Notes: generated by a model from the sequence alone, not told the origin. Positions 21,125-47,044 are shown, counted from the first letter of the stretch. The stretch: 47,458 nt of DNA from Bacteroidota bacterium (GCA_020047755.1 JAIFNL010000018.1:1-47458); one strand, 5' to 3'. Translations and numbers: made by a program.

Positions 21125-22474
21125 TTAGTCAAACAAATTTGAGTCAATTATTTTACCAACTTGAGCTTCCAATTCTGTTTTTGATGTGCATGTTACGTTC
21201 ACAAGACGATAAGGTTTTGAGCCTAAAAACATATTCCAACGCCAATCTAACTGACTGATTGTTTTGTGTTTACCATTATCGTACCACCAAGCGGTGTATA
21301 AATTTTCGCCAGTTTTGGCTGTTAAAATTGAAAAATAAACTTTATGCGCATTTATCGAAACGATTTTTTCGGCAGAAAATTCGTAACCACTTCCTTTCCA
21401 ACAAATTATAGGCGTATGGTCTGCACCATAAAATTGAACTGATGGTTTTATATAAATAAGCGTTTTCTCATTTTTCAACTGAACAATATTTTGATTAACT
21501 ATTTCTTTATCAAATCCTTGCAACTCAATTTTCAGCGCAGATTCGTCAAAAGTATAGTTTCTAAATTCTGCTCTAAAAAAATTTAAAACTGAAAGTTGCA
21601 ACAAGATTATTAAGCTAATAATCAAATACTTATAATTATCAAAAAAAATTCTAACCTTCGATTTTTTGTCCATAGCTTCGGCTAATTCTACTTTTTCATC
21701 AATAATTATCTTCTTAAACCGAAAAACTTTTTTCGTAATAAAAAAGATAGGTAAAATCACATACAAACACAATGAAAAAACGCCCAGTAACTCATGCGTA
21801 ACAGTCTCAGGAGCAGCCTTAAAAACAACAATTCCTACAATTCGAAATAAATTGCTAATCACATTCAACAAAAAAGCAATAAATAAAATTAAAATAATCT
21901 GCCAAAAAGAAGCTACTTTGTGAGTTTCCTTTTCTATTTTTGAAATAACATAAAGAGTTAAAATAAAGCCAGTTGTGAGTAAATTTAAGCCCATACACTC
22001 AGGTGCAACTTTGTAAATTTCTTTTCCTAGAAAAATAATATTTCCCGAAAAAGAAATACCATCATAAACAAAAGCTAAAATATTGGCAGCCAACTCTGTA
22101 ATAAGCAAGCGAATAGGAAAACCAAAAGTATTGAAAAAAAATGAAGCCAAAGGAGAAAGTAAAAGCATCAAAAAAAAAGGCAAATTATTAAGCTTTCCGT
22201 AATTGATTTCGACCAAAAATAGTAGAAAAAAAGCAAAACCAAAGAAAAAAAGTGATTGAATTTTCAAAAATGGATAAAAAATAAGTAAAAAAATAGCAAA
22301 CAATCCAAAACGTGCGCTTTTTTTGTTCTCGAAACGCACATAAAGCACAAAAGGCAAAAACAAAAAAGTTATAATTTGCTGAAAATCAAAACTAAAATAA
22401 AATATCAAATTTTGATAACTCGCTAAAAAAGCTAAAAAAGCAAAAGCTATAATTTTACTAATTTTTTCCATCAT
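21125..22474 (-). CDS. xrtN: exosortase N
   Basis: A 449-residue polytopic membrane cysteine protease/transpeptidase predicted to process proteins with a PEP-CTERM-like tail. About eight hydrophobic helices precede residue 250. The exosortase triad is visible: Cys160 in APECMGLNLL, Arg211 in NLFRIVGIVVF and His227 in THELLGVFS. After a further helix (about 281-300) a periplasmic C-terminal domain has YGADHTPIICWKGSGYEF and LYTAWWYDNG, resembling the EpsI-type domain fused to or encoded beside exosortases. Size and the adjacent VIT-domain target fit the exosortase N subtype of Bacteroidota. It is 61 bp downstream of the VIT gene. Subtype assignment rests on pattern memory plus context. Confidence 0.85.
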   Translation of the reverse strand: MMEKISKIIAFAFLAFLASYQNLIFYFSFDFQQIITFLFLPFVLYVRFENKKSARFGLFAIFLLIFYPFLKIQSLFFFGFAFFLLFLVEINYGKLNNLPFFLMLLLSPLASFFFNTFGFPIRLLITELAANILAFVYDGISFSGNIIFLGKEIYKVAPECMGLNLLTTGFILTLYVISKIEKETHKVASFWQIILILFIAFLLNVISNLFRIVGIVVFKAAPETVTHELLGVFSLCLYVILPIFFITKKVFRFKKIIIDEKVELAEAMDKKSKVRIFFDNYKYLIISLIILLQLSVLNFFRAEFRNYTFDESALKIELQGFDKEIVNQNIVQLKNEKTLIYIKPSVQFYGADHTPIICWKGSGYEFSAEKIVSINAHKVYFSILTAKTGENLYTAWWYDNGKHKTISQLDWRWNMFLGSKPYRLVNVTCTSKTELEAQVGKIIDSNLFD

Positions 22475-22535
22475 TTTATATATAATGCAAGTTTTCCAAA
22501 GTTTATGCCTCAGAAAACCTGCAAATTTTTAAATA

Positions 22536-25034
22536 TTATCTACCAAAAAACTTTTTAATTGATGTGATGAGAACAACAAGTATAGACACAACAATTAAAA
22601 TCCATTCGTGCGGTTCAGGAACTCCGCCATGTCCCAAAACAGAAGCATTTCCGAGAGTATTCTGATTTTCGTCTATATCAAATCGTTCGTAATCGGCTTG
22701 CGATTCTAGCACTATCAGGCTAGAAACGGGGCTAACAATGTAAGCTTCTTCTGCTAAGGTAATTAAGTTATCTGTGATAAATTTTTCGTCGAAAAAGTTT
22801 TTACCTGCTTCTTGCACAGTTTTATTATAGGCAAACATTCGCAACAAATGGTCGGGTGCACCAGTGTTTTCAACTCCTACTACTTTCTTTATCAGCATGT
22901 TTGCTTCCGTAATCGAAACCTCATTTTCGGCAGTAGAAACCACAGGAAATTTACTATTTTTGGCTATTTTTTCTAAATCAGCCAAACTACCTTCCATATA
23001 TTCAATGGCTCTAAATTGTTTCAAAGTTTTTAAAAATGGCGAAAGTGTATTATTGAGATTAAATAAATAAATAGTTTGGCTTTTTGTAGTTAAAAATTTA
23101 GAAAGTTCTTTCATAAAATTACTTTCTTTCAAATCGGAATAGTTCGGAGAATTTTCTGTCGATTTTGAAATAACCAAAGCCGAGTTCGATTTTATTTTAT
23201 GGAATGGGAGCAAGCTGAAATTCAATGAATTAATACGCTTGAAAAGTTCATCTTTGTTTTGTTCGGAAAGTTTTATCATTTCATCAAAATACACAAAAAC
23301 TTCTTTGCCTTTAAAAAAAGACAAGACTTCATCAAATTCATCTTCCGACCATGAGCTATTGATGTCAAGAAAAATAGTATCCATCGAAATCTTTCTATTT
23401 TTGGTTTTAAGCTCCGAAAGTGAGTAAGAATTGTTTCCAAAAGAGAATGATTTGCCAGAAATAGGAAGTTTATCAAAAGAAATTGACCAATTTTCGATAT
23501 ATGAGCCGCTATATTCAAATTTATTTTGCGCTATTTCGTCAAAATAAGAAGGAATTTCTAAATTTTCCATCTTTTTATCTGCTTCAACAATCAAAATTGT
23601 GGTTTCGAGAGTCGATTCTGCTACTGGACCTTCAAAATTCACATTATCAAGTATCAATTTTCCATTTTCCAATTTAAGCGGAATTGTAACTCCTATTTTG
23701 AAACGTCTATTCTCTTGAGGTGTGCATGGGAAAACATTGACAATCAACTTATTGCCCTCTTGCCAGTGCATTACCGATGGGTCGCGAACTTCTACACCTA
23801 CAACCGTTGTGTATGCGCTATCTGCCTTATTTTTAGTGGTTAAACGCGATTTTTGCTCTTCGCCGTTTATCCAAAGCGAAAGAGAACTTGCCACAGAACC
23901 TTCTGGCAAATTAAAAGTATAAAGTGCTTCTTGCTGATTCCACTCGTATTGATTTGAATTTTTTACCGAAATAATTTTTTCGACATAAGCTAACCTAAAC
24001 TCAGGATAAATACGAATATTTGTCAATACTTCGCTAGTTTTCAAGTCTTTGCCTGTCCATAGTTTTTGAGTTGCTTTGTGCCTATTTCCAAAAAGAGTGC
24101 GTAACACCTTAATTCGCTCTTCATCACTGATTTCCAATTCCTTAGTAAGTGCAGCAGCCATTACAATAAACGGGTTGTGTAATTTTTTTTCACTAAATGA
24201 ACCCATATTAGGCGAAAAAAAATTGAAAGAAGTTCCTGAGTCGTAAACAAAATTTCCTTTCATGATTGTTTCTGTAATATTATCATTATCAATTGATTGA
24301 CTTAGCAATATCCAAGTAGGTAAATCGACCAAAGGGCGTGTAATTATTGAAGCGTTGGCAGTGTGAATCCTTTGATTAGCAGTATTATAGGCAGAAATAT
24401 AAATTATGGTTATGGCAATAGGCAAAGCAACTCCAAGGTAATATGCAAGGGTTTGCAAAAATGTTTTTCGTGCTCTAACTACCTGCACCAACAACGTAAT
24501 GAGCAGAATGATAGGCATTAACAAGTGAATAGTAAATCCAAAAAACACCAAACCAACAAAAGCAAATGGCATGGTAGGCATCAAATACAATGTAAAGTAA
24601 AGTGCTAGCATAGAGCCTATTCCCAAAAAGAAAAAATTAACTGCCGAAAAATAAGTTTGCATTGTAGGAAAAAAAATTTGCAAACCTAGCGAAATGTAAG
24701 TTGCAAAAAAAGCTATAAATAACCAAGTTGGCATTTCCGAAAACACATTTATTTCGAGATTTATAGTAAAACAACTGATAGTAAGCAAACTAAGCAGTAA
24801 AAAAAAATGCCGCACATCGAGTTTAAAAATGCGCCAACCATTTGCCACCATGTTATTTATTGTAATTGCAATGAAATAAGCAATTCCTATAAAGTAAACT
24901 ATAAAAACAATAAAGTCGTCAGAATGTTTTAGTCGTGCAAATAAATTGTACATAACTAAAGATATGGCATTTAATAAAATGCCTAAAAGTATCATCAATT
25001 GCGATTTTGAGTTTGTTGTTTCCATTTTAATCAT
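22536..25034 (-). CDS. XrtN-system VIT-domain protein with PEP-CTERM-like tail
   Basis: An 832-residue membrane protein, the likely dedicated substrate of the adjacent exosortase N. The N-terminal 230 residues carry about eight transmembrane helices. A VIT-like region follows (about 345-470; LYTFNLPEGSVASSL, then ADSAYTTVVGVEVRD), then a degenerate von Willebrand A-like region starting at TIFLDINSSWSED, where the MIDAS motif is DINSS. The C-terminus has the three-part sorting tail: PEPHEW, a hydrophobic helix (ILIVVSILVVLITSI) and basic KKFFGR. The longer frame opens with TTG inside the upstream operator, so I use the ATG at 25034; an ATG at 25025 is possible. Confidence 0.85.
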   Translation of the reverse strand: MIKMETTNSKSQLMILLGILLNAISLVMYNLFARLKHSDDFIVFIVYFIGIAYFIAITINNMVANGWRIFKLDVRHFFLLLSLLTISCFTINLEINVFSEMPTWLFIAFFATYISLGLQIFFPTMQTYFSAVNFFFLGIGSMLALYFTLYLMPTMPFAFVGLVFFGFTIHLLMPIILLITLLVQVVRARKTFLQTLAYYLGVALPIAITIIYISAYNTANQRIHTANASIITRPLVDLPTWILLSQSIDNDNITETIMKGNFVYDSGTSFNFFSPNMGSFSEKKLHNPFIVMAAALTKELEISDEERIKVLRTLFGNRHKATQKLWTGKDLKTSEVLTNIRIYPEFRLAYVEKIISVKNSNQYEWNQQEALYTFNLPEGSVASSLSLWINGEEQKSRLTTKNKADSAYTTVVGVEVRDPSVMHWQEGNKLIVNVFPCTPQENRRFKIGVTIPLKLENGKLILDNVNFEGPVAESTLETTILIVEADKKMENLEIPSYFDEIAQNKFEYSGSYIENWSISFDKLPISGKSFSFGNNSYSLSELKTKNRKISMDTIFLDINSSWSEDEFDEVLSFFKGKEVFVYFDEMIKLSEQNKDELFKRINSLNFSLLPFHKIKSNSALVISKSTENSPNYSDLKESNFMKELSKFLTTKSQTIYLFNLNNTLSPFLKTLKQFRAIEYMEGSLADLEKIAKNSKFPVVSTAENEVSITEANMLIKKVVGVENTGAPDHLLRMFAYNKTVQEAGKNFFDEKFITDNLITLAEEAYIVSPVSSLIVLESQADYERFDIDENQNTLGNASVLGHGGVPEPHEWILIVVSILVVLITSIKKFFGR

Positions 25035-25054
25035 TTTTTTTAGTTTATTTATTA

Positions 25055-25083
25055 AAAGTACTTTGAAATACAAAGCAAAAATA
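25055..25083 (-). promoter_or_regulatory. palindromic operator copy 1, upstream of the VIT gene
   Basis: CTTTG (25061-25065), spacer AAATA and CAAAG (25071-25075) form a palindrome inside a stretch of about 30 bp nearly identical to that at 26106-26136 (AAAGTACTTTGAA, then CAAAGC and an A-rich end). It lies 26 bp before the chosen ATG. On the minus strand TATTTTTG (25083-25076) is a possible -7, but no -33 is evident. Confidence 0.6.
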
Positions 25084-25092
25084 GAAAAAAAA

Positions 25093-25410
25093 TTAGTCTC
25101 GTTTTTTTACAACTTCTTGTGTATTAGACAAAAGCTTGTTTAAATTCTCTAAATGCAAATTAAATTCGTTGCGACCTAACAGGCTAGCCCTGTAAGAAGT
25201 TTTAGGCTTTTTACCAACAAATTGCTTACGAACTTCCATATATTCTTCTGATTCCAAAGCTTTTAGATGGCTTGCTAAATTTCCATCGCTCACTTCGAGA
25301 AGCTCTTTGAGTGCCAAAAAATCGACCCAATCATTGACCATCAAAATAGACATAATGCCAAGCCTGATACGACTTTCAAACATTTTATTCAAATTAGCGA
25401 TTATATTCAT
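25093..25410 (-). CDS. winged-helix transcriptional regulator
   Basis: A 105-residue DNA-binding protein of the small winged-helix (HTH_34-like, MarR/ArsR-fold) type. Residues about 10-80 show the fold: FESRIRLGIMSILMV (helix 1), WVDFLALKELLEVSDGNLASHLKALESEEY (helix-turn-helix with recognition helix NLASHLKAL), and a wing with KQFVGKKPKTSYRASLLG. No metal site or ligand domain is visible. It lies between a six-helix membrane protein and the VIT gene, with near-identical palindromes upstream of both, so it most likely represses its own operon. The signal that would relieve it is unknown. Confidence 0.85.
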   Translation of the reverse strand: MNIIANLNKMFESRIRLGIMSILMVNDWVDFLALKELLEVSDGNLASHLKALESEEYMEVRKQFVGKKPKTSYRASLLGRNEFNLHLENLNKLLSNTQEVVKKRD

Positions 25411-25446
25411 GGCAAGAAATTAAAAATTACGAACTAGTAAAAAAGC

Positions 25447-26088
25447 TTAATTTCTTTCGTACTTAAAATACATCAACGTGCCATAAATAATATGCAGTAC
25501 ACCAAAACCTACAGCCCAAAAAAACAGCCCATAACCAATAAAAAACACGGCAATTAGCCCCAAAAAAATTTCTAAAATTCCCAAGGCTCGCACATCATTT
25601 AATGTGTAATGGCTTGCATTGACAAGAGCTAATCCGTAGAAAATGAGAGTAATAGCAGGCAAAATTGCCACTTCGCCATGATAAAGAAGTATCAAACCAA
25701 ACAATCCGCCAGCCACTAATGGAATAAACAAATTGATTAACAAGCGTTTAAATGTATTATCCCATATTTTATCGCCTCTGCGCTTTGCCTTGCGCCAAGT
25801 AAAATAAAATCCAAAGCTCAAAGCCAAAAGTAAAACGCTTAGAGCATCGGTAAAAACAAACAATAAAAATTGATTACGAGTTTGAGAATCAGCAAAATAA
25901 ATCATATCTTGGGTTTCGCCATAATAAAAGGAGTAATCAAAATACACATAAGCAGCCATTGCACCAAAAAGTGCAAAAACGCCAATAAATACGCCAGACA
26001 ATCCACTTAATGACAAAAATCGTGTCGATTTTTCCATTAACGACCGAATTTGCTTCAAATCACTGAGATGTTGTTCTTTTTGAGTCAT
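25447..26088 (-). CDS. six-helix membrane protein paired with the regulator
   Basis: A 213-residue integral membrane protein with a short cytoplasmic N-terminal helix (MTQKEQHLSDLKQIRSLMEK) and about six transmembrane segments (for example LSGVFIGVFALFGAMAAYVYF, DALSVLLLALSFGFYF, LGLIAVFFIGYGLFFWAVGF). No enzymatic motif is seen. Such proteins commonly travel with small winged-helix regulators in Bacteroidota, possibly sensing membrane state; that role is inference. The start is the ATG at 26088, because the longer TTG-initiated frame begins inside the operator and upstream of the predicted transcription start. The stop is 36 bp before the regulator. Confidence 0.75.
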   Translation of the reverse strand: MTQKEQHLSDLKQIRSLMEKSTRFLSLSGLSGVFIGVFALFGAMAAYVYFDYSFYYGETQDMIYFADSQTRNQFLLFVFTDALSVLLLALSFGFYFTWRKAKRRGDKIWDNTFKRLLINLFIPLVAGGLFGLILLYHGEVAILPAITLIFYGLALVNASHYTLNDVRALGILEIFLGLIAVFFIGYGLFFWAVGFGVLHIIYGTLMYFKYERN

Positions 26089-26105
26089 TTTGCGCTGTAT
26101 AAAAT

Positions 26106-26153
26106 AAAGTACTTTGAATTGCAAAGCTAAAAATTAGCCTTCACATAAACAAA
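26106..26153 (-). promoter_or_regulatory. promoter with palindromic operator copy 2, head of the XrtN operon
   Basis: On the minus strand TTTG (26153-26150) and TAGCTTTG (26129-26122) are 20 bp apart, a full Bacteroidota promoter. The -7 element shares bases with the palindrome CTTTG-AATTG-CAAAG (26112-26126), so a bound regulator would cover the -7 and the start point near 26115. The ATG at 26088 follows about 27 nt later. Confidence 0.72.
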
Positions 26154-34067: not shown

Positions 34068-37000
34068 ATGAAAAACCTTGCTTTGTTAGCCTTATTCTTG
34101 TTAGTTATAAGTTTTTCAGCCATTTCGCAGCCAGAAATAATAGTTCAAGCAAAACACAATTCAAAGGTTTTGCAATCAAAATACAGTAGTGATGGCGAGT
34201 GGTTAGCAACAAGCGACAACGATGGTAAAATAATTATCTGGGATTCTAAAACAAAAAAAAGAGTTAGAAGCTTTGATAATAAAGGATATCCAGCAAAAGC
34301 ATTGGCTTTCCACCCAAATAAAAACATTCTAATTTCGTCAAGTAACAATAGGATAATAGAATGGAATATTTATAACGGTAAAATAGTTCGCATTTTAAAA
34401 GCCGAGCATGATGATTATATAACTAGTCTCGATTTTAGCAACGATGGAAAATACTTGGTAAGCGGTTCGATAGACGAATCGGCAATTGTATGGCGTTTCT
34501 CAAATGGAAAAATGAAAAAACGTTTGAAACAAAATTTATTTTATAATAACGCAATTTACTCTGTAAAATTTTCGAAATTTGGAGAGTATGTTTTTACTGC
34601 AGGCGAAGACATCAATGTAAATATGTGGGATTGGCGAAAAAATGAATTGATTAGAAAATTCAAACATCACAAATACAAAATAAACAATATTGCAATAAAC
34701 AGCACTAGTAGTTTGATAGCATCGGCAAGCAACGACAGTAAAATAAATATTTGGAACATTAATTCGGGCAAAAAAATAGCCACTTTGCAATTGCCCAATA
34801 GCGATGCTCCTGCACAAAATATAGCCTTTCACCCAACGCTCGATAGAATTATAGCAACCTATTATAAAAATTATACCGATTCTACTCGCCTTTATACCAA
34901 AGAGGTAGTAGAAGGAAAACTGATAATGTGGGACATAAATAAATCGAAAATTGTTTGGGACAAAGATTTATTGGGAGGCGTTTTAGATATTGATATTTCG
35001 AGCGACAAAAAAAGTTTTATCACTGCCAATAGCGATTCAAACATAAAAATATTTAATATTAGTAATGGACAACAAACTTATACATTAGGCTCTGAAACGC
35101 AAATTAATAGCATTGTATTTGTGCCCGAGCGCAATGAGTTCATTACTGCTCTAAATAATGGAATTATCAAAATTTGGGATTCTAATAAACTCAAAATAAA
35201 AGGAATACTCGAAACAAATATTCCACAAGCAGTATCTGCCATTGACTATGATTATGCTTCGGGAAATTTAGTTGCAGCCATTGGCTCTACTATTTTTATT
35301 TGGAATTACGACTACAATGAAAAAAAATATCTATTTTCAAATACCTTCAAAATTAGTGAAAGCGATATTACAGAAATAAAGCTAACTGACCTATCGAGTA
35401 AAATATTCATCAAAAGAAAACTCTCGTACAATAAATTTGATATAGATAAACTTCCCGCCTATAAAAATGGAATAATACCCGAAGACTTAATCGATAATGT
35501 GGATTCAATTATAGCCGAAGTTTATAATCTAAAAGGCGATATGCTTTTTACTTACGACGATATTTTGCATGAAAATATCCATTTTGCCAACAACAACAGC
35601 AACCTTAAAATTGCTTTTACAAGCTCAGAAAACGATATAATTGAAAGTGATTTTAATAGCGACATGACCAACAGCAACTACATCTACAAAGAAGAAAATA
35701 TAATGAATACCAATTCTTTGATAGAAAGCTTAGCCTCAAATGCCTCAAAATTAAGTAGTAGTGCATCTAATTACAAAGGTTTTGTACAAACACACGATAA
35801 AACAGCAGTAAAAAATGCTGAAAATAGTAAAGTACTAAAGCTAGAACAAAAGCGTTTATCAAAAATAAATCCGGCATTTACAATTAATAATAAATACAAA
35901 TACATCGATTACAGTGCAAATGGTGAGTATTTGGCAGCTTGTGGACTTTTTGATTATATCGAACTATACGATTTGATAAAAAAGCAAAAAAAAGAAATAG
36001 GTAGATTTAGCGAAGCCGTTGAATTTTTTAGTTTTAGCTCTGATAACACAATGCTGGCAACAATTTCGGGCAAAAAAATACAAGTTTGGAATGTTTTAAA
36101 TGGAGCTCTTGAAAATGAAATTTCGAGTAAAAACATACTCAAAGAAGTGCATTTTTTCGACCAGAACAAAAAATTACTCTCTTATGGACACGATGATGGC
36201 ATCAAAATATGGAATACCGAAGATTTAGAGCCAATAGCTACCATTATTTCTGTCGGAAAAAGCGATTACATCACACTTTCAGACGAATCGTACTATGTTT
36301 CGTCTGAAAATGGAAGCCAAGGCGTAGCATTCTATGTAAATGAAACTTGTATTCCGGTGGAATGTTTCAAAATGAAGTATTCGCGCCCCGAAATTATAAT
36401 GAGTAAATTAGGTTCTTCTGACAATAATATAATAGCAGATTATTCAAATGAATATACTGCAAATTTAGAAAAATTTGGAATAACCAAAGACGAATTTGAT
36501 TTATCGCACATTCCAACGGTAGAAATTCAAAACAAAAGTGAATTCAAATGGTTCACAAACAACAGGTTAATAAGTTTAGATTTGAGAGCCACTGATTTGT
36601 CGTATGATTTAAAACGAATTAATATTTATGTAAACGGTGTGCCCATTTTGAAACCCAATCAAATTGATATAAGCCACAATAAAACAGACAATTACACGCA
36701 AAAATATACCATAGAACTGAATATGGGAAAAAATGTAATTTATGCTTATACAACCAACGAAAAAGGAGCAGAATCTGTAAAAGATTCGCTCATTATTACA
36801 TTAAAATTAAGAAATGATGCAGAAGAACCAAAACCTGATTTATACATCATTGCCTTAGGAACTTACCAATTTGCCGAAAAAGAGTTAAATTCGGAATTTA
36901 CACTCGAAAGTACCCGAAAACTTATTCAAATATTAGGAAAAGATAAATCAAACTACCGAAATATAATCATCGACACACTTTTCAACGAAGAAGCATTGAA

Positions 37001-37583
37001 ATACCAACTTTTGAGTTTAAAAAGAAAATATAGACACGTAAAAGTTGATGACCAATTTATTGTCATTTCGTCGGGCTATAGCGTTCTGAAAAACAATTTT
37101 GACGTTTATTTTGCAACACACAACATGAATTTCGGCGACCCTGAAAAAAATGGAATTGCCCATACTCTCATCAATAGTATGTTGGCAGAAGTTCCTGCTC
37201 GAAACAAAATTGTAATTGTCGATTCGTGGCAATTTATACAGAACGAAACAGCCAAAAACCTTGATAAACAAACAAATAAAGAGCTTTCCGAAATCACATT
37301 CGGTTCATACGACCCTGCAAAAAATATACGCAAAGACATTTTTAAAGAAATGTACAAAACATCTGGAACAACTGTTCTTTTTACAAATGGAATTAACAAA
37401 ACTGACCAAAAAGTCAATTTAATTACCAAAACCTTAGCACATGGTTATCGCAAAAAGAATGCAGATTTTAACAATGATGGAATTATTTCGAGCCACGAGA
37501 TAAACAATTATTTCGACTATCAGCATACTTTAATTGAAGAATCGGAAACAGAAAAAAAGGTAGCTGTTTACAAAGAATTTTAA
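34068..37583 (+). CDS. secreted WD40 protein with degenerate caspase-like domain
   Basis: A 1171-residue exported protein. A signal peptide (MKNLALLALFLLVISFSAIS) is followed by WD40 repeats over about residues 25-450 and 620-770, interrupted by an inserted low-complexity segment (about 450-615). A beta-sandwich-like stretch follows (about 810-920), then a C-terminal peptidase C14-like domain (about 925-1130; KPDLYIIALGTYQF ... VDDQFIVISSGYSVLK ... KIVIVDSWQF). The caspase catalytic His is Tyr1004 (SGYS in place of SGHG) and the catalytic Cys is Trp1054 (DSWQ in place of D-x-C-x-S-G), so the domain cannot be a cysteine protease. An EF-hand-like DFNNDGIISSHEI ends the protein. Role unknown, probably binding or scaffolding in the periplasm. 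Confidence 0.82.
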   Translation: MKNLALLALFLLVISFSAISQPEIIVQAKHNSKVLQSKYSSDGEWLATSDNDGKIIIWDSKTKKRVRSFDNKGYPAKALAFHPNKNILISSSNNRIIEWNIYNGKIVRILKAEHDDYITSLDFSNDGKYLVSGSIDESAIVWRFSNGKMKKRLKQNLFYNNAIYSVKFSKFGEYVFTAGEDINVNMWDWRKNELIRKFKHHKYKINNIAINSTSSLIASASNDSKINIWNINSGKKIATLQLPNSDAPAQNIAFHPTLDRIIATYYKNYTDSTRLYTKEVVEGKLIMWDINKSKIVWDKDLLGGVLDIDISSDKKSFITANSDSNIKIFNISNGQQTYTLGSETQINSIVFVPERNEFITALNNGIIKIWDSNKLKIKGILETNIPQAVSAIDYDYASGNLVAAIGSTIFIWNYDYNEKKYLFSNTFKISESDITEIKLTDLSSKIFIKRKLSYNKFDIDKLPAYKNGIIPEDLIDNVDSIIAEVYNLKGDMLFTYDDILHENIHFANNNSNLKIAFTSSENDIIESDFNSDMTNSNYIYKEENIMNTNSLIESLASNASKLSSSASNYKGFVQTHDKTAVKNAENSKVLKLEQKRLSKINPAFTINNKYKYIDYSANGEYLAACGLFDYIELYDLIKKQKKEIGRFSEAVEFFSFSSDNTMLATISGKKIQVWNVLNGALENEISSKNILKEVHFFDQNKKLLSYGHDDGIKIWNTEDLEPIATIISVGKSDYITLSDESYYVSSENGSQGVAFYVNETCIPVECFKMKYSRPEIIMSKLGSSDNNIIADYSNEYTANLEKFGITKDEFDLSHIPTVEIQNKSEFKWFTNNRLISLDLRATDLSYDLKRINIYVNGVPILKPNQIDISHNKTDNYTQKYTIELNMGKNVIYAYTTNEKGAESVKDSLIITLKLRNDAEEPKPDLYIIALGTYQFAEKELNSEFTLESTRKLIQILGKDKSNYRNIIIDTLFNEEALKYQLLSLKRKYRHVKVDDQFIVISSGYSVLKNNFDVYFATHNMNFGDPEKNGIAHTLINSMLAEVPARNKIVIVDSWQFIQNETAKNLDKQTNKELSEITFGSYDPAKNIRKDIFKEMYKTSGTTVLFTNGINKTDQKVNLITKTLAHGYRKKNADFNNDGIISSHEINNYFDYQHTLIEESETEKKVAVYKEF

Positions 37584-40866: not shown

Positions 40867-42645
40867 ATGGAAAAGCTAAAACTAATAGTTGGAATGGGAA
40901 GCTGCGGAATTGCTGCCGGAGCAGGCAAAGTTTTCGACAAAATAAAATACCTCCAAAACAACGAACAGCTCGACATCGATTTAGACCAAACTAGCTGTGT
41001 AGGAATGTGTTACAGAGAACCTCTTGTAGAAATTATCGACAACAATATTTCCTATTTATATGGAGGAATTGACGAAGAAAAAGTAGAAGAACTAATAGAG
41101 CACCACCAAAAATTTCATCTTCCCATAAAAGAATTAGTTGTAAAAACCGAAGAATTTAAAACTATCGACAACGAATTTACCGACTCGCAAGTAAAAATAG
41201 CACTTCGCAACTGCGGCTACATAAATCCCGAACGAATAGAAGAATATATAGCCAATAATGGCTACAAAGCAATCACTAAAATTGCAGAAAACAGCCTTTC
41301 GCAAGAACAAATTATCCAAAATATAATTGACTCAGGGCTTCGCGGACGAGGCGGCGGCGGTTTCTTAACCGGATTAAAATGGCGTTTTGCCAACAACAAT
41401 AAAAATGCCGAAAAATATATTATTTGCAATGCCGACGAAGGCGACCCGGGAGCATTCATGGATCGCTCAGTTTTGGAAGGCGACCCGCATTCTGTCATCG
41501 AAGGCATGATAATTGGGGCTTACGCAATAGGCGCAAACGACGGTGTTATTTATTGCAGAGCCGAATATCCTCTGGCTATCAAGCGATTAAACATTGCCTT
41601 AGCACAGGCACGCGAAAAAGGTTTTCTTGGAAAAAACATTTGTGGTATCAAAAATTTTAATCTCGACATTCACGTAAAAGAAGGAGCAGGAGCATTTGTT
41701 TGTGGCGAAGAAACTGCTCTAATAGCCTCAGTAGAAGGCGAAAGAGGAATGCCGCGCAAACGTCCGCCCTTTCCAGCAGCTTCAGGTTTATGGAAAAAAC
41801 CAACAAACATAAATAACGTGGAAACTTTTGCAAATATTCCTTGGATAATTTTTAATGGTGCAAAAGAATACGCCAAATATGGAACAGAAAAAAGCAAAGG
41901 AACAAAAGTTTTTGCCCTTACTGGAAAAATAAATCGCGGTGGTTTAGTAGAAGTTCCCATGGGAATTACTATCAAAGACATCATTTACAAACTTGGCGGT
42001 GGTATTCAAAATGGCAAAAAATTTAAAGCCGTTCAGCTTGGCGGACCATCGGGCGGCTGTATTCCTGCCTACCTCGACGACACCATTGTGGATTACGATT
42101 CGGTAAATGCCACAGGTGCCATCATGGGTTCGGGCGGAATGGTTGTAATGGACGAATCGACCTGCATGGTGGACATGGCGCGGTTTTTCCTCGATTTTAC
42201 ACAAAAAGAATCGTGCGGAAAATGCACCTTTTGCAGAATTGGCACTAAAAGAATGTTAGAAATATTGACCCGAATTACCGAAGGCGAAGGCAAAGAAGGT
42301 GATATTGAAAAACTGGAAGAACTTTCGTACCAAATAAAAGATTCGTCGCTTTGTGGACTTGGGCAAACTGCACCAAATCCGGTACTTACAACCATTAAAT
42401 ATTTCAGAAACGAATATGAAGCTCACATTCGCGACAAAAAATGTCCGGCAAAAAGTTGCACAAAATTACTCACTTACGAAGTGATTTCTGAAAATTGCAC
42501 AGGCTGTACAATTTGTGCAGTAAATTGCCCAACCAACGCAATTGATGGTGGCAAAAAAACAATTCATTTTATTCGCCAAGATGCATGTATTAAATGTGGA
42601 GCTTGTCTCACAAAATGTAATTTTGATGCAATTAAAATATCGTAA
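40867..42645 (+). CDS. NuoF/HydB-like NAD(P)H-binding flavoprotein subunit
   Basis: A 592-residue FMN and iron-sulfur subunit that should oxidise or reduce NAD(H). Domains: N-terminal thioredoxin-like ferredoxin (1-90; GMGSCGIAAGA and TSCVGMCYREPLVEI, only three Cys visible), NuoF core with RGRGGGGFLTGLKW and CNADEGDPGAFMDR (FMN and NADH site), GAGAFVCGEETALIASVEG, a [4Fe-4S] site SCGKCTFCRIGTKRMLE with a later Cys in SSLCGLG, and a C-terminal 2[4Fe-4S] ferredoxin (CTGCTICAVNCPTNAI; CIKCGACLTKCNFDAI). This HydB-like layout belongs to soluble multisubunit oxidoreductases rather than membrane complex I. Confidence 0.93.
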   Translation: MEKLKLIVGMGSCGIAAGAGKVFDKIKYLQNNEQLDIDLDQTSCVGMCYREPLVEIIDNNISYLYGGIDEEKVEELIEHHQKFHLPIKELVVKTEEFKTIDNEFTDSQVKIALRNCGYINPERIEEYIANNGYKAITKIAENSLSQEQIIQNIIDSGLRGRGGGGFLTGLKWRFANNNKNAEKYIICNADEGDPGAFMDRSVLEGDPHSVIEGMIIGAYAIGANDGVIYCRAEYPLAIKRLNIALAQAREKGFLGKNICGIKNFNLDIHVKEGAGAFVCGEETALIASVEGERGMPRKRPPFPAASGLWKKPTNINNVETFANIPWIIFNGAKEYAKYGTEKSKGTKVFALTGKINRGGLVEVPMGITIKDIIYKLGGGIQNGKKFKAVQLGGPSGGCIPAYLDDTIVDYDSVNATGAIMGSGGMVVMDESTCMVDMARFFLDFTQKESCGKCTFCRIGTKRMLEILTRITEGEGKEGDIEKLEELSYQIKDSSLCGLGQTAPNPVLTTIKYFRNEYEAHIRDKKCPAKSCTKLLTYEVISENCTGCTICAVNCPTNAIDGGKKTIHFIRQDACIKCGACLTKCNFDAIKIS

Positions 42646-44356: not shown

Positions 44357-47044
44357 ATGTCGCAAATAAATATAACAATAGATGGCAAACTATATAAAGC
44401 TGATAATGAGCAAACTATATTAGAATTTTGTAATGAAATAGGAATAAAAATTCCAACACTTTGCCACGACCCACGCTTAGAGCCTTATTCGTCTTGTTAT
44501 CTGTGTGTTGTGGAAATAGAAGGTGCACGCGGATTACAAACTTCGTGCTCTACCAAAATGGCAGAAGGCATGAAAATACAAACCAACAACGAAAAAGTTC
44601 GAGCCTCACGCAAAATGGCGCTCGACCTTTTGCAAAGCAACCACTTTGCAAGTTGCCAAGCTCCTTGCAAAAGTTCGTGCCCTGCCGGAGTTGATGTGCA
44701 AGGCTATATCTCGCTGATTGAAAAAGGATTATACCATGAAGCTGTAAAATTGATAAAGGAAGTAAACCCACTTCCCGCCATTTGCGGACGCGTGTGTGTG
44801 CGCCCATGCGAAGCGGCGTGCAACCGAAATTTTATGGAAAACGAAGGCACGCCCGTGGGCATTGACTATATGAAACGCTTTGTAGCTGATTTTGACTTAA
44901 ACTCAAAAAATCACTATAAACCTGAAATACAATCAAGTACAGGAAAAAAAGTGGCAGTAATCGGCGCAGGTCCGGGTGGACTTTCAGCAGCCTACTTTTT
45001 GCAACAAAAAGGGCATCAAGTAGATATATTTGAGGCAAACAACCACGCAGGTGGCTGGTTACGCTACGGAATACCCGAATATCGTTTGCCTAACAACCTA
45101 CTAGACAAAGAAATAGAAACAATTACCGAACTAGGAACAAATCTATTCTTAAATCAAAAACTTGGAGAAAATCTAAGCTACGAAAAACTAAAAAAAGAAT
45201 ACAATGCAACTATCTTAACCATTGGTGCTCAGAAAGGTACACTTTTAGGTGTGGAAGGTGAAGAAGCAGAAGGAGTTTATTCAGGCATTGATTTTCTGCG
45301 AAATATGGAACAAACAGGTCAAAAATATGATTTTTCTGGAAAAACGATAGTGGTAGTAGGTGGCGGAAATACCGCAATGGATTGCTGCAGAACTTCAATT
45401 CGGTGCAAAGCCGAAAAAACTTACGTCATTTATCGCCGCACCGAAAAAGAAATGCCAGCAAATCCGATAGAAATTCACGAATCGAAACTGGAAGGTGTTG
45501 AATATCTATTTCTTACAAACCCAACAAAAGTAAATAAAGACGAAAATGGAAAATTAAAATCCATAACTTGTGTGAAAATGACTTTGGGTGAGCCTGATTC
45601 GTCGGGTCGGCGTCGTCCAATTCCTGAGGAAGGCTCTGAATTTGAAGTAAATGCAGATTACATTTTGGCTGCAATTGGTCAAAAAGTAAATGCCGATTTT
45701 ATAACCGACATCAATAAATTTGCCGAAAATGGAGAATTAAAACTCAGTAAATGGGGAACAATTCAAGCCAATGAAAAAACGCTGCAAACCGATATTCCGT
45801 CGATATTTGCAGCCGGCGACGGAGTTACAGGCGCAGCCACAATAATCGAAGCCATAGCCCAAGCTGGAATCGCTGCCAGAAGCTGCGACCAATTCATTAT
45901 GGGACAACGAATTGAACCAAAACCCAAAGAATTTTTAAGCAAAAAATCTAATTTTGTGAAAGCAAGCCCAAAAGCATTCATGGGCAAATTTGAATATCAG
46001 CTAAGAAAAGAGATGCCAGTTTTAGACGAGAAAAACCGAATTAATTTCGGTGAAGTAGAGCTTGGCTACACAGAGGAAATGGCATTGCAAGAAACTGCTC
46101 GCTGCTTTGAGTGCGGTTGTTCGGAATATTTCAGCTGCGATTTGAAAGATTATTCAACTGAATATGGAGCTGAGCAAGAAAAGTTTAAAGGTGAATTTAA
46201 AGCACGTCCGGTAGATTTTTCGCACCCATTCATCGAAATTGACAACAACAAGTGCATTTTGTGCTCGCGTTGCGTTCGCATTTGCAAAGACGTAGTTGGA
46301 GCAGGAGCTTTGGGCTTAATAAACAGAGGCTTTGATACTTACGTAGCTCCAAGCATGGGCTTGTCGCTTACCGAAACCGCTTGCGAAAGTTGCGGTTTGT
46401 GCATTTCTACTTGCCCAACTGGCGCAATAACCGAAAATGTTAAATTCAAATCGGGTCCCGTAAAAATGGATAGCTTTGAAACTATATGTAACTATTGTTC
46501 AATAGGTTGCAAACTTACTATACATCACAGAAGCGGCTTTGTAATGAAAGTAGCAGGCGCAAACGGACTAGTAAACAAAGAAGGCAATCACTGCAAATTT
46601 GGCAAATTTGGTTACTCTTTTTATAATGATAAAACACGAATAACCAAGCCTTTGCTAAAAGAAAACGGCGAATTTAAAGAAATTAGCTTTGAAAAAGCAT
46701 TTGCTATCATAGCTGAAAAAATAAAAGCGGTAAAACCAGAAGAAAACGCATTTTATGCAGGCGCACGTTTAACCAACGAAGAGATTTATTTAATCCAAAA
46801 ATTGGCTCGTGCAGGAGCTAAAACAAACAATATCAGTAGTTTTCACTATGCACAACGCGAAAATGGATATATCAAAAATTCGTTCGACAATGTGCCGTTT
46901 GAAGAAATTTCAAAAGCCGGAAAAGTGTTTCTATTTGGTGCTGAACTAAATAACGACAATGGCGTAGTTAGTTTCATGGTTCAAAACGCCAGAGCTAAAA
47001 AAAATACAAGCATTGATTTGATTACCAGACTCGAAGACAGATAA
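44357..47044 (+). CDS. GltD-NuoG fusion subunit of an NAD(P)H oxidoreductase, truncated by a frameshift
   Basis: An 895-codon multidomain electron-transfer protein. Order: plant-type [2Fe-2S] ferredoxin (1-75); GltD N-terminal cysteine region (ASCQAPCKSSCPAGVD, ICGRVCVRPCEAACNR); GltD-like FAD domain (VAVIGAGPGGLSAAY, about 199) with NAD(P)H domain (VVVGGGNTAMDC about 331; YRRTEKEMPA); C-terminal 2[4Fe-4S] ferredoxin (CILCSRCVRICKD about 632; CESCGLCISTCPTGAI); and the start of a NuoG/FdhA-like domain (ICNYCSIGCKL about 708). Where formate dehydrogenases have their molybdenum-ligand Cys or Sec, NNISSFHYAQREN (about 823) has none. With the NuoE- and NuoF-like subunits this resembles Stn-type transhydrogenases. 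The homologous frame continues after the stop, see next entry. Confidence 0.85.
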   Translation: MSQINITIDGKLYKADNEQTILEFCNEIGIKIPTLCHDPRLEPYSSCYLCVVEIEGARGLQTSCSTKMAEGMKIQTNNEKVRASRKMALDLLQSNHFASCQAPCKSSCPAGVDVQGYISLIEKGLYHEAVKLIKEVNPLPAICGRVCVRPCEAACNRNFMENEGTPVGIDYMKRFVADFDLNSKNHYKPEIQSSTGKKVAVIGAGPGGLSAAYFLQQKGHQVDIFEANNHAGGWLRYGIPEYRLPNNLLDKEIETITELGTNLFLNQKLGENLSYEKLKKEYNATILTIGAQKGTLLGVEGEEAEGVYSGIDFLRNMEQTGQKYDFSGKTIVVVGGGNTAMDCCRTSIRCKAEKTYVIYRRTEKEMPANPIEIHESKLEGVEYLFLTNPTKVNKDENGKLKSITCVKMTLGEPDSSGRRRPIPEEGSEFEVNADYILAAIGQKVNADFITDINKFAENGELKLSKWGTIQANEKTLQTDIPSIFAAGDGVTGAATIIEAIAQAGIAARSCDQFIMGQRIEPKPKEFLSKKSNFVKASPKAFMGKFEYQLRKEMPVLDEKNRINFGEVELGYTEEMALQETARCFECGCSEYFSCDLKDYSTEYGAEQEKFKGEFKARPVDFSHPFIEIDNNKCILCSRCVRICKDVVGAGALGLINRGFDTYVAPSMGLSLTETACESCGLCISTCPTGAITENVKFKSGPVKMDSFETICNYCSIGCKLTIHHRSGFVMKVAGANGLVNKEGNHCKFGKFGYSFYNDKTRITKPLLKENGEFKEISFEKAFAIIAEKIKAVKPEENAFYAGARLTNEEIYLIQKLARAGAKTNNISSFHYAQRENGYIKNSFDNVPFEEISKAGKVFLFGAELNNDNGVVSFMVQNARAKKNTSIDLITRLEDR

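Follow-up and report, generated by a model that had tools for sequence, protein, structure and literature searches.

An exosortase N operon of a Bacteroidota bacterium as a probable member of a widespread HTH_34 regulon

Dedicated sorting systems were described in 2011 (PMC3237569), among them VIT/vWA-type proteins that have a sortase of their own (TIGR03788/TIGR03784) and GlyGly-CTERM systems. Exosortase N (XrtN; TIGR04476) and its VIT-domain partner (TIGR04477) are also known families, and their pairing is not new. Here an xrtN locus is described in a stretch of 47,458 nucleotides (the window; GCA_020047755.1 JAIFNL010000018.1:1-47458) from a Bacteroidota bacterium whose genome comprises 4.6 Mb in 313 contigs. 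On the minus strand, the genes for a six-helix membrane protein (TM6), a small winged-helix regulator of the HTH_34 family, the VIT-domain protein and XrtN follow one another in the direction of transcription. An initial annotation of this DNA had proposed these four genes in this order, and the gene calls, the Pfam and NCBIfam profile matches and, for the membrane protein, its six hydrophobic segments bear it out.

The VIT-xrtN pair itself shows no difference from the TIGR04476/TIGR04477 systems: the gene order, the catalytic triad, the VIT domain and the PEP tail are the same. The HTH_34 operator and regulon described below are absent from the family entries that were returned. The systems with a dedicated sortase and the GlyGly-CTERM systems share with the window one VIT-type target and an adjacent sorting enzyme. 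In comparison with the TIGR03788/TIGR03784 systems, however, the target in the window is polytopic, the metal site of its vWA-like domain is degenerate, and its partner is an exosortase, not a sortase. The MSEP-CTERM protein (TIGR04286) is distantly related to this target (53.3 bits over residues 53-464, below the cut-off of 150 bits) and carries a sorting signal different from PEPHEW. A single dedicated substrate, which the initial annotation found strange, is not so in view of the systems described in 2011.

The main finding is an operator-like repeat common to the regulatory pair and to VIT-xrtN. Reading of the upstream regions revealed the same element in front of both TM6 and the VIT gene: the inverted repeat RCTTTG-N5-CAAAGT and, after it, ACTTT. 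It suggests, with a probability of roughly 0.7, that a widespread envelope regulon of Bacteroidota has several interchangeable effector operons, with VIT-xrtN among them, and that HTH_34 would repress this regulon at the -7 promoter element. Two exact sites are present in the window, whereas two sites occurred in none of 100 shuffles (mean 0.02). The whole genome contains four matches, and the two in the window are the only promoter-placed copies: as promoters, the other two were rejected, one lying in a convergent gap and the other inside a gene. The -7 promoter element of Bacteroidota is TAnnTTTG. The left arm of the repeat ends with TTTG, which is part of this element, and TAGCTTTG in operator 1 fits the element. 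When the sites are aligned, ACTTTG, CAAAGT and the following CTTT are kept at 87-100% per base; the upstream flank is T-rich and the downstream flank A-rich. The number of sites per genome is 0-6 when one mismatch of the longer pattern is allowed. The repeat is therefore not a general promoter.

The same arrangement is found widely in the class. TM6 is encoded in 93 of the 295 class genomes sampled, once per genome, and is conserved together with HTH_34 as a pair. In the 65 TM6 loci the pattern matched 120 times and its reversal 4 times; nearly all of these loci have one site before TM6 and another between HTH_34 and the next operon. This next operon encodes a DUF4153 protein in 30 loci, CreD in 14 (both in one locus) and VIT-xrtN in six; none follows in 16. 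The VIT gene was never found together with DUF4153 or CreD in this slot. The Bacteroidota gene runs with CreD or DUF4153 thus have the TM6-HTH_34 pair and the two operators before the slot in common with the window, and differ in the effector: a CreD or DUF4153 protein takes the place of the VIT protein and its exosortase. The initial annotation had regarded the regulator as belonging to the exosortase locus. This has to be revised, because the operon downstream of the pair usually encodes DUF4153 or CreD. Within its own genome HTH_34 is the sole PF13601 match at E 0.001. An apparent fusion of TM6 and HTH_34 in two loci (L034 and L070) was an artefact spanning a run of N. In Firmicutes, regulator-membrane pairs are known as PadR-HAAS/DUF1700. 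They resemble the TM6-HTH_34 pair in that a small winged-helix gene lies beside a gene for a small membrane protein; TM6, however, has no detectable homology to any Pfam family, and the resemblance is a lead only.

The xrtN loci were compared from their own side. A VIT-type gene lies directly upstream of xrtN at each locus examined, and TM6-HTH_34 adjoins VIT-xrtN in seven of 21 loci from five families (the window, G760 from a genus-mate of the window genome, G649, G445, G345, G360 and G491). The conservation of the four-gene order, whose absence the initial annotation had named as a refutation, thus holds in these seven loci and fails in the other 14. Both operators are present in all seven; in G345 the second precedes an Exo_endo_phos gene, itself 5' of the VIT gene. 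Among the 14 loci without adjacent TM6-HTH_34, eight carry an operator in front of the VIT gene or of the gene run that contains it (G174, G245, G296, G487, G550, G475, G580 and, with one mismatch, G368). In total, 15 of the 21 VIT-xrtN loci have an operator; the reversed pattern gave no match. Several of the genomes with a non-adjacent site have a TM6-HTH_34 module with its own sites elsewhere; in G174 and G245 it lies, with two such sites, on another contig. Of the XrtN genomes, which number at most 16, at least 13 contain TM6; among the 279 other genomes the count is 80 (Fisher p 4e-5, kinship ignored). The DAGK and DUF1361 genes, which elsewhere follow DUF4153, lie 3' of xrtN in G445.

In G580 (L056:2603-8137), two operators precede a DUF4153-VIT-xrtN run; here DUF4153 and VIT-xrtN stand side by side, though they are alternating effectors elsewhere. 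Further operator matches, several of them paired, were observed apart from TM6-HTH_34 and VIT-xrtN (G360:C9:1160-1444 and C23:31193; G445:C32:774-882; G491:C13:8301; G174:C17:98957-99738; G475:C1:215971). The genes at these positions may be additional members of the regulon.

The most likely mechanism behind these observations is the following. HTH_34 would act as a repressor that binds RCTTTG-N5-CAAAGT(ACTTT). As the site overlaps TTTG of the -7 element, binding would shut two promoters, that of TM6-HTH_34 itself and that of the effector operon. A signal from the membrane or envelope would lift the repression, probably relayed via the co-transcribed TM6, which might be a sensor or a modulator of the repressor. 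Derepression would lead to synthesis of the polytopic VIT protein, whose VIT and vWA-like domains would face the periplasm. XrtN would then cut the PEPHEW tail beside the C-terminal helix, and an acceptor may receive the new C-terminus from it. The cleaved protein is expected to stay in the inner membrane. Release from the membrane seems unlikely as the purpose of processing, because seven helices are retained after cleavage; the joining or maturation of an envelope protein is the more likely purpose. The sequences themselves establish the genes and their families, the operator-like site with its positions, the single tail signal and the alternation with DUF4153/CreD, whereas binding by the repressor, sensing by TM6, cleavage with its effect and the envelope role are inferred. 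The regulatory link that the initial annotation drew between the regulator/membrane pair and VIT-xrtN is supported by the common operator, and its idea of a signal-responsive envelope system, still conjectural, is better grounded by it.

Several points weigh against the repressed regulon. The TA of the TAnnTTTG consensus precedes in just 37 of 131 sites. No operator could be recognised in six of the 21 XrtN loci (G109, G404, G458, G470, G524 and G719); the link to the operator is therefore not universal. TM6 has no sensor domain that the Pfam search recognised: no Pfam or NCBIfam family was above its cut-off, and at E 0.1 only a chance-like match to Ost5 appeared. Finally, the site could serve an activator rather than a repressor. 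Indeed, HTH_34 might be an activator, or sense a metal or redox state by itself, with TM6 as plain cargo and the regulon working without membrane signalling. The missing sensor domain is in line with such cargo, and HTH_34 is weakly similar to SufR (E 7e-5) and ArsR/SmtB (E 1e-3), though far under their cut-offs. On the other hand, the overlap with the presumed -7 part of the promoter favours repression, and the conservation of TM6 and HTH_34 as a pair does not suit a mere cargo. We regard this alternative as doubtful, but it survives better than the others.

It is improbable that an ordinary XrtN-VIT pair simply lies beside an unrelated regulator/membrane pair without cross-regulation. This would explain why only the VIT-xrtN core is common to all loci examined and why TM6-HTH_34 is adjacent in only a third of them. 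However, the repeat is rare and still precedes VIT-xrtN where no regulator adjoins, and adjacency is spread over the five families with several changes on the trees. Four changes of adjacency were obtained on the VIT tree and four on the XrtN tree, of which the well-supported branches force at least three and at least two, respectively. In the TM6 tree, the xrtN-adjacent genes do not form one group (weak support). Such a history could have arisen through docking on several occasions or through an ancestral link followed by losses, and both argue for a functional tie. An RNA element (an attenuator or an mRNA stability hairpin) instead of a protein operator is very improbable: the repeat does have a 5-base spacer and lies a few tens of bases 5' of a start codon, but the bases of the two arms hardly vary and show no compensatory changes, as expected for a protein site, the left arm includes TTTG of the presumed promoter, and a hairpin would leave the downstream third half-site ACTTT unused.

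Among the features listed in Table 1, operator 2 sits between HTH_34 and the VIT gene. For this reason the four genes probably form two transcription units, and the one four-gene operon of the initial annotation is unlikely. The membrane protein likely starts at ATG 26088, and the VIT protein at ATG 25034 or 25025. The TTG codons at 26124 (membrane protein) and 25073 (VIT protein) were rejected as starts; both lie within the operator repeat.

Table 1. Features of the xrtN locus, with positions in the window
Feature	Position	Strand	Description and basis
Operator 1	26106..26127	-	GCTTTGCAATTCAAAGT + ACTTT, 5' of TM6-HTH_34; exact RCTTTGN5CAAAGT match
TM6	25447..26088	-	Six-helix membrane protein, 213 amino acids; six hydrophobic segments; no family above cut-off
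HTH_34	25093..25410	-	Winged-helix regulator, 105 amino acids; PF13601, 92.5 bits (cut-off 27)
Operator 2	25055..25076	-	GCTTTGTATTTCAAAGT + ACTTT, 5' of VIT-xrtN; exact RCTTTGN5CAAAGT match
VIT protein	22536..25034	-	XrtN-system VIT-domain protein, 832 amino acids from ATG 25034; TIGR04477, 871.8 bits (cut-off 250)
N-terminal helices of VIT protein	24342..25010	-	Seven transmembrane helices; AlphaFold2 model and hydropathy
VIT domain	23694..23963	-	PF08487, E 1.1e-7
vWA-like domain	22938..23381	-	Degenerate metal site, D-x-N-x-x-W replacing DxSxS; structural match to ITIH1 and VWF A1
Sorting signal	22539..22619	-	PEPHEW (22602-22619), then helix and basic tail
xrtN	21125..22474	-	Exosortase N; TIGR04476, 338.8 bits (cut-off 200)
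C160 of XrtN	21995-21997	-	Catalytic residue
R211 of XrtN	21842-21844	-	Catalytic residue
H227 of XrtN	21794-21796	-	Catalytic residue
EpsI-like domain of XrtN	21128..21550	-	C-terminal; invariant HxPxxCW and WW, weak DUF3485 matches

The VIT protein was modelled by AlphaFold2 with a predicted local distance difference test (pLDDT) value of 87.7. Seven N-terminal helices are followed by the VIT domain, the vWA-like domain and one C-terminal helix, in agreement with the eight-helix substrate of the initial annotation. The charges of the loops are consistent with a cytoplasmic N-terminus and periplasmic VIT and vWA-like domains. The soluble part matches the heavy chain 1 of inter-alpha-inhibitor (6fpy; Z 15.5, 386 residues, root-mean-square deviation 7.3); the next-best structural family has a Z of 9.7. 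In all 21 XrtN targets the VIT domain was detected and PEPxEW is invariant, and the window's protein has the proposed tail of PEPHEW, helix and basic residues. The DxSxS motif of the metal-ion-dependent adhesion site is not found in the polytopic targets, which mostly have DxNxxW. It is intact solely in the targets of G524 and G470, shorter VIT-vWA proteins with a signal peptide and a PEPHEW tail, which are TIGR03788-like (417 and 383 bits, under the cut-off of 552). It should be mentioned that the XrtN loci at L062:5159-8454 and L065:4760-8043 have such a short signal-peptide target of the TIGR03788 type, with DxSxS intact and a PEPHEW tail: this kind of protein is served there by an exosortase, and in marine proteobacteria by a sortase.

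As judged by the tail signal, XrtN has a single target. A search of the window's own genome with the tail profile gave the VIT gene with E 2.5e-16, and the next best match had E 0.7. The DNA pattern for PEPHEW is unique in this genome save for PEPHEL, with one mismatch, inside miaA; this and the remaining tail matches (E 0.7 or worse) were rejected as further targets.

XrtN passed the cut-off in four of 296 genomes of the phylum sample, the same four that have the VIT family, and was found in 16 of 395 genomes of the class. The catalytic residues C160, R211 and H227, already named in the initial annotation, are invariant in the 21 aligned XrtN proteins. So are H353-x-P355-x-x-C358-W359 and W396-W397 in the EpsI-like tail. 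The Pfam match of this tail to DUF3485/EpsI is weak and limited to three of the 21 members (best E 0.006), the window protein not being among them. Foldseek with XrtN gave no significant match (best E 0.005, DcrB), and further comparison of the C-terminal domain gave middling Z values of up to 7.5. A second exosortase-like protein of 199 amino acids is encoded in the same genome (contig C307:7423-7857; L073:1429-2028, minus strand). Its Cys, Arg and His are conserved, and it is nearest to XrtX (131.5 bits, cut-off 170) and XrtF.

The neighbouring genes for a CLC channel and a radical-SAM protein were rejected as part of the system; their conservation is confined to the genus. Farther away in the window, a protein of 1171 amino acids with many WD40 repeats is encoded at 34068-37583. 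The regions 40867-42645 and 44357-47044 encode NuoF-like, 2Fe-2S, pyridine nucleotide-disulphide oxidoreductase and molybdopterin oxidoreductase domains, a set that resembles those of electron-bifurcating hydrogenases or formate dehydrogenases.

In the open-access literature, which leaves most subscription journals outside, neither the operator of TM6-HTH_34 nor a connection between it and XrtN, CreD or DUF4153 was found described, and nothing relevant was returned for XrtN, the operator sequence, CreD in Bacteroides, DUF4153 or HTH_34. It is fairly probable that TM6-HTH_34 with RCTTTG-N5-CAAAGT(ACTTT) constitutes a hitherto undescribed switch for envelope stress. Roughly one third of the class genomes sampled would have this switch, whose slot would take DUF4153, CreD or an exosortase together with its VIT substrate. 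If this is true, exosortase N gains a regulatory context, and the VIT protein would be expected to do similar work to CreD or DUF4153. The operator, defined by its sequence, would place exosortase N in one regulon with CreD and DUF4153 and name its expected regulator, so that the role of exosortase N would become testable through deletion of one regulator. The operator would also offer a handle on a common and apparently undescribed regulatory module of Bacteroidota.

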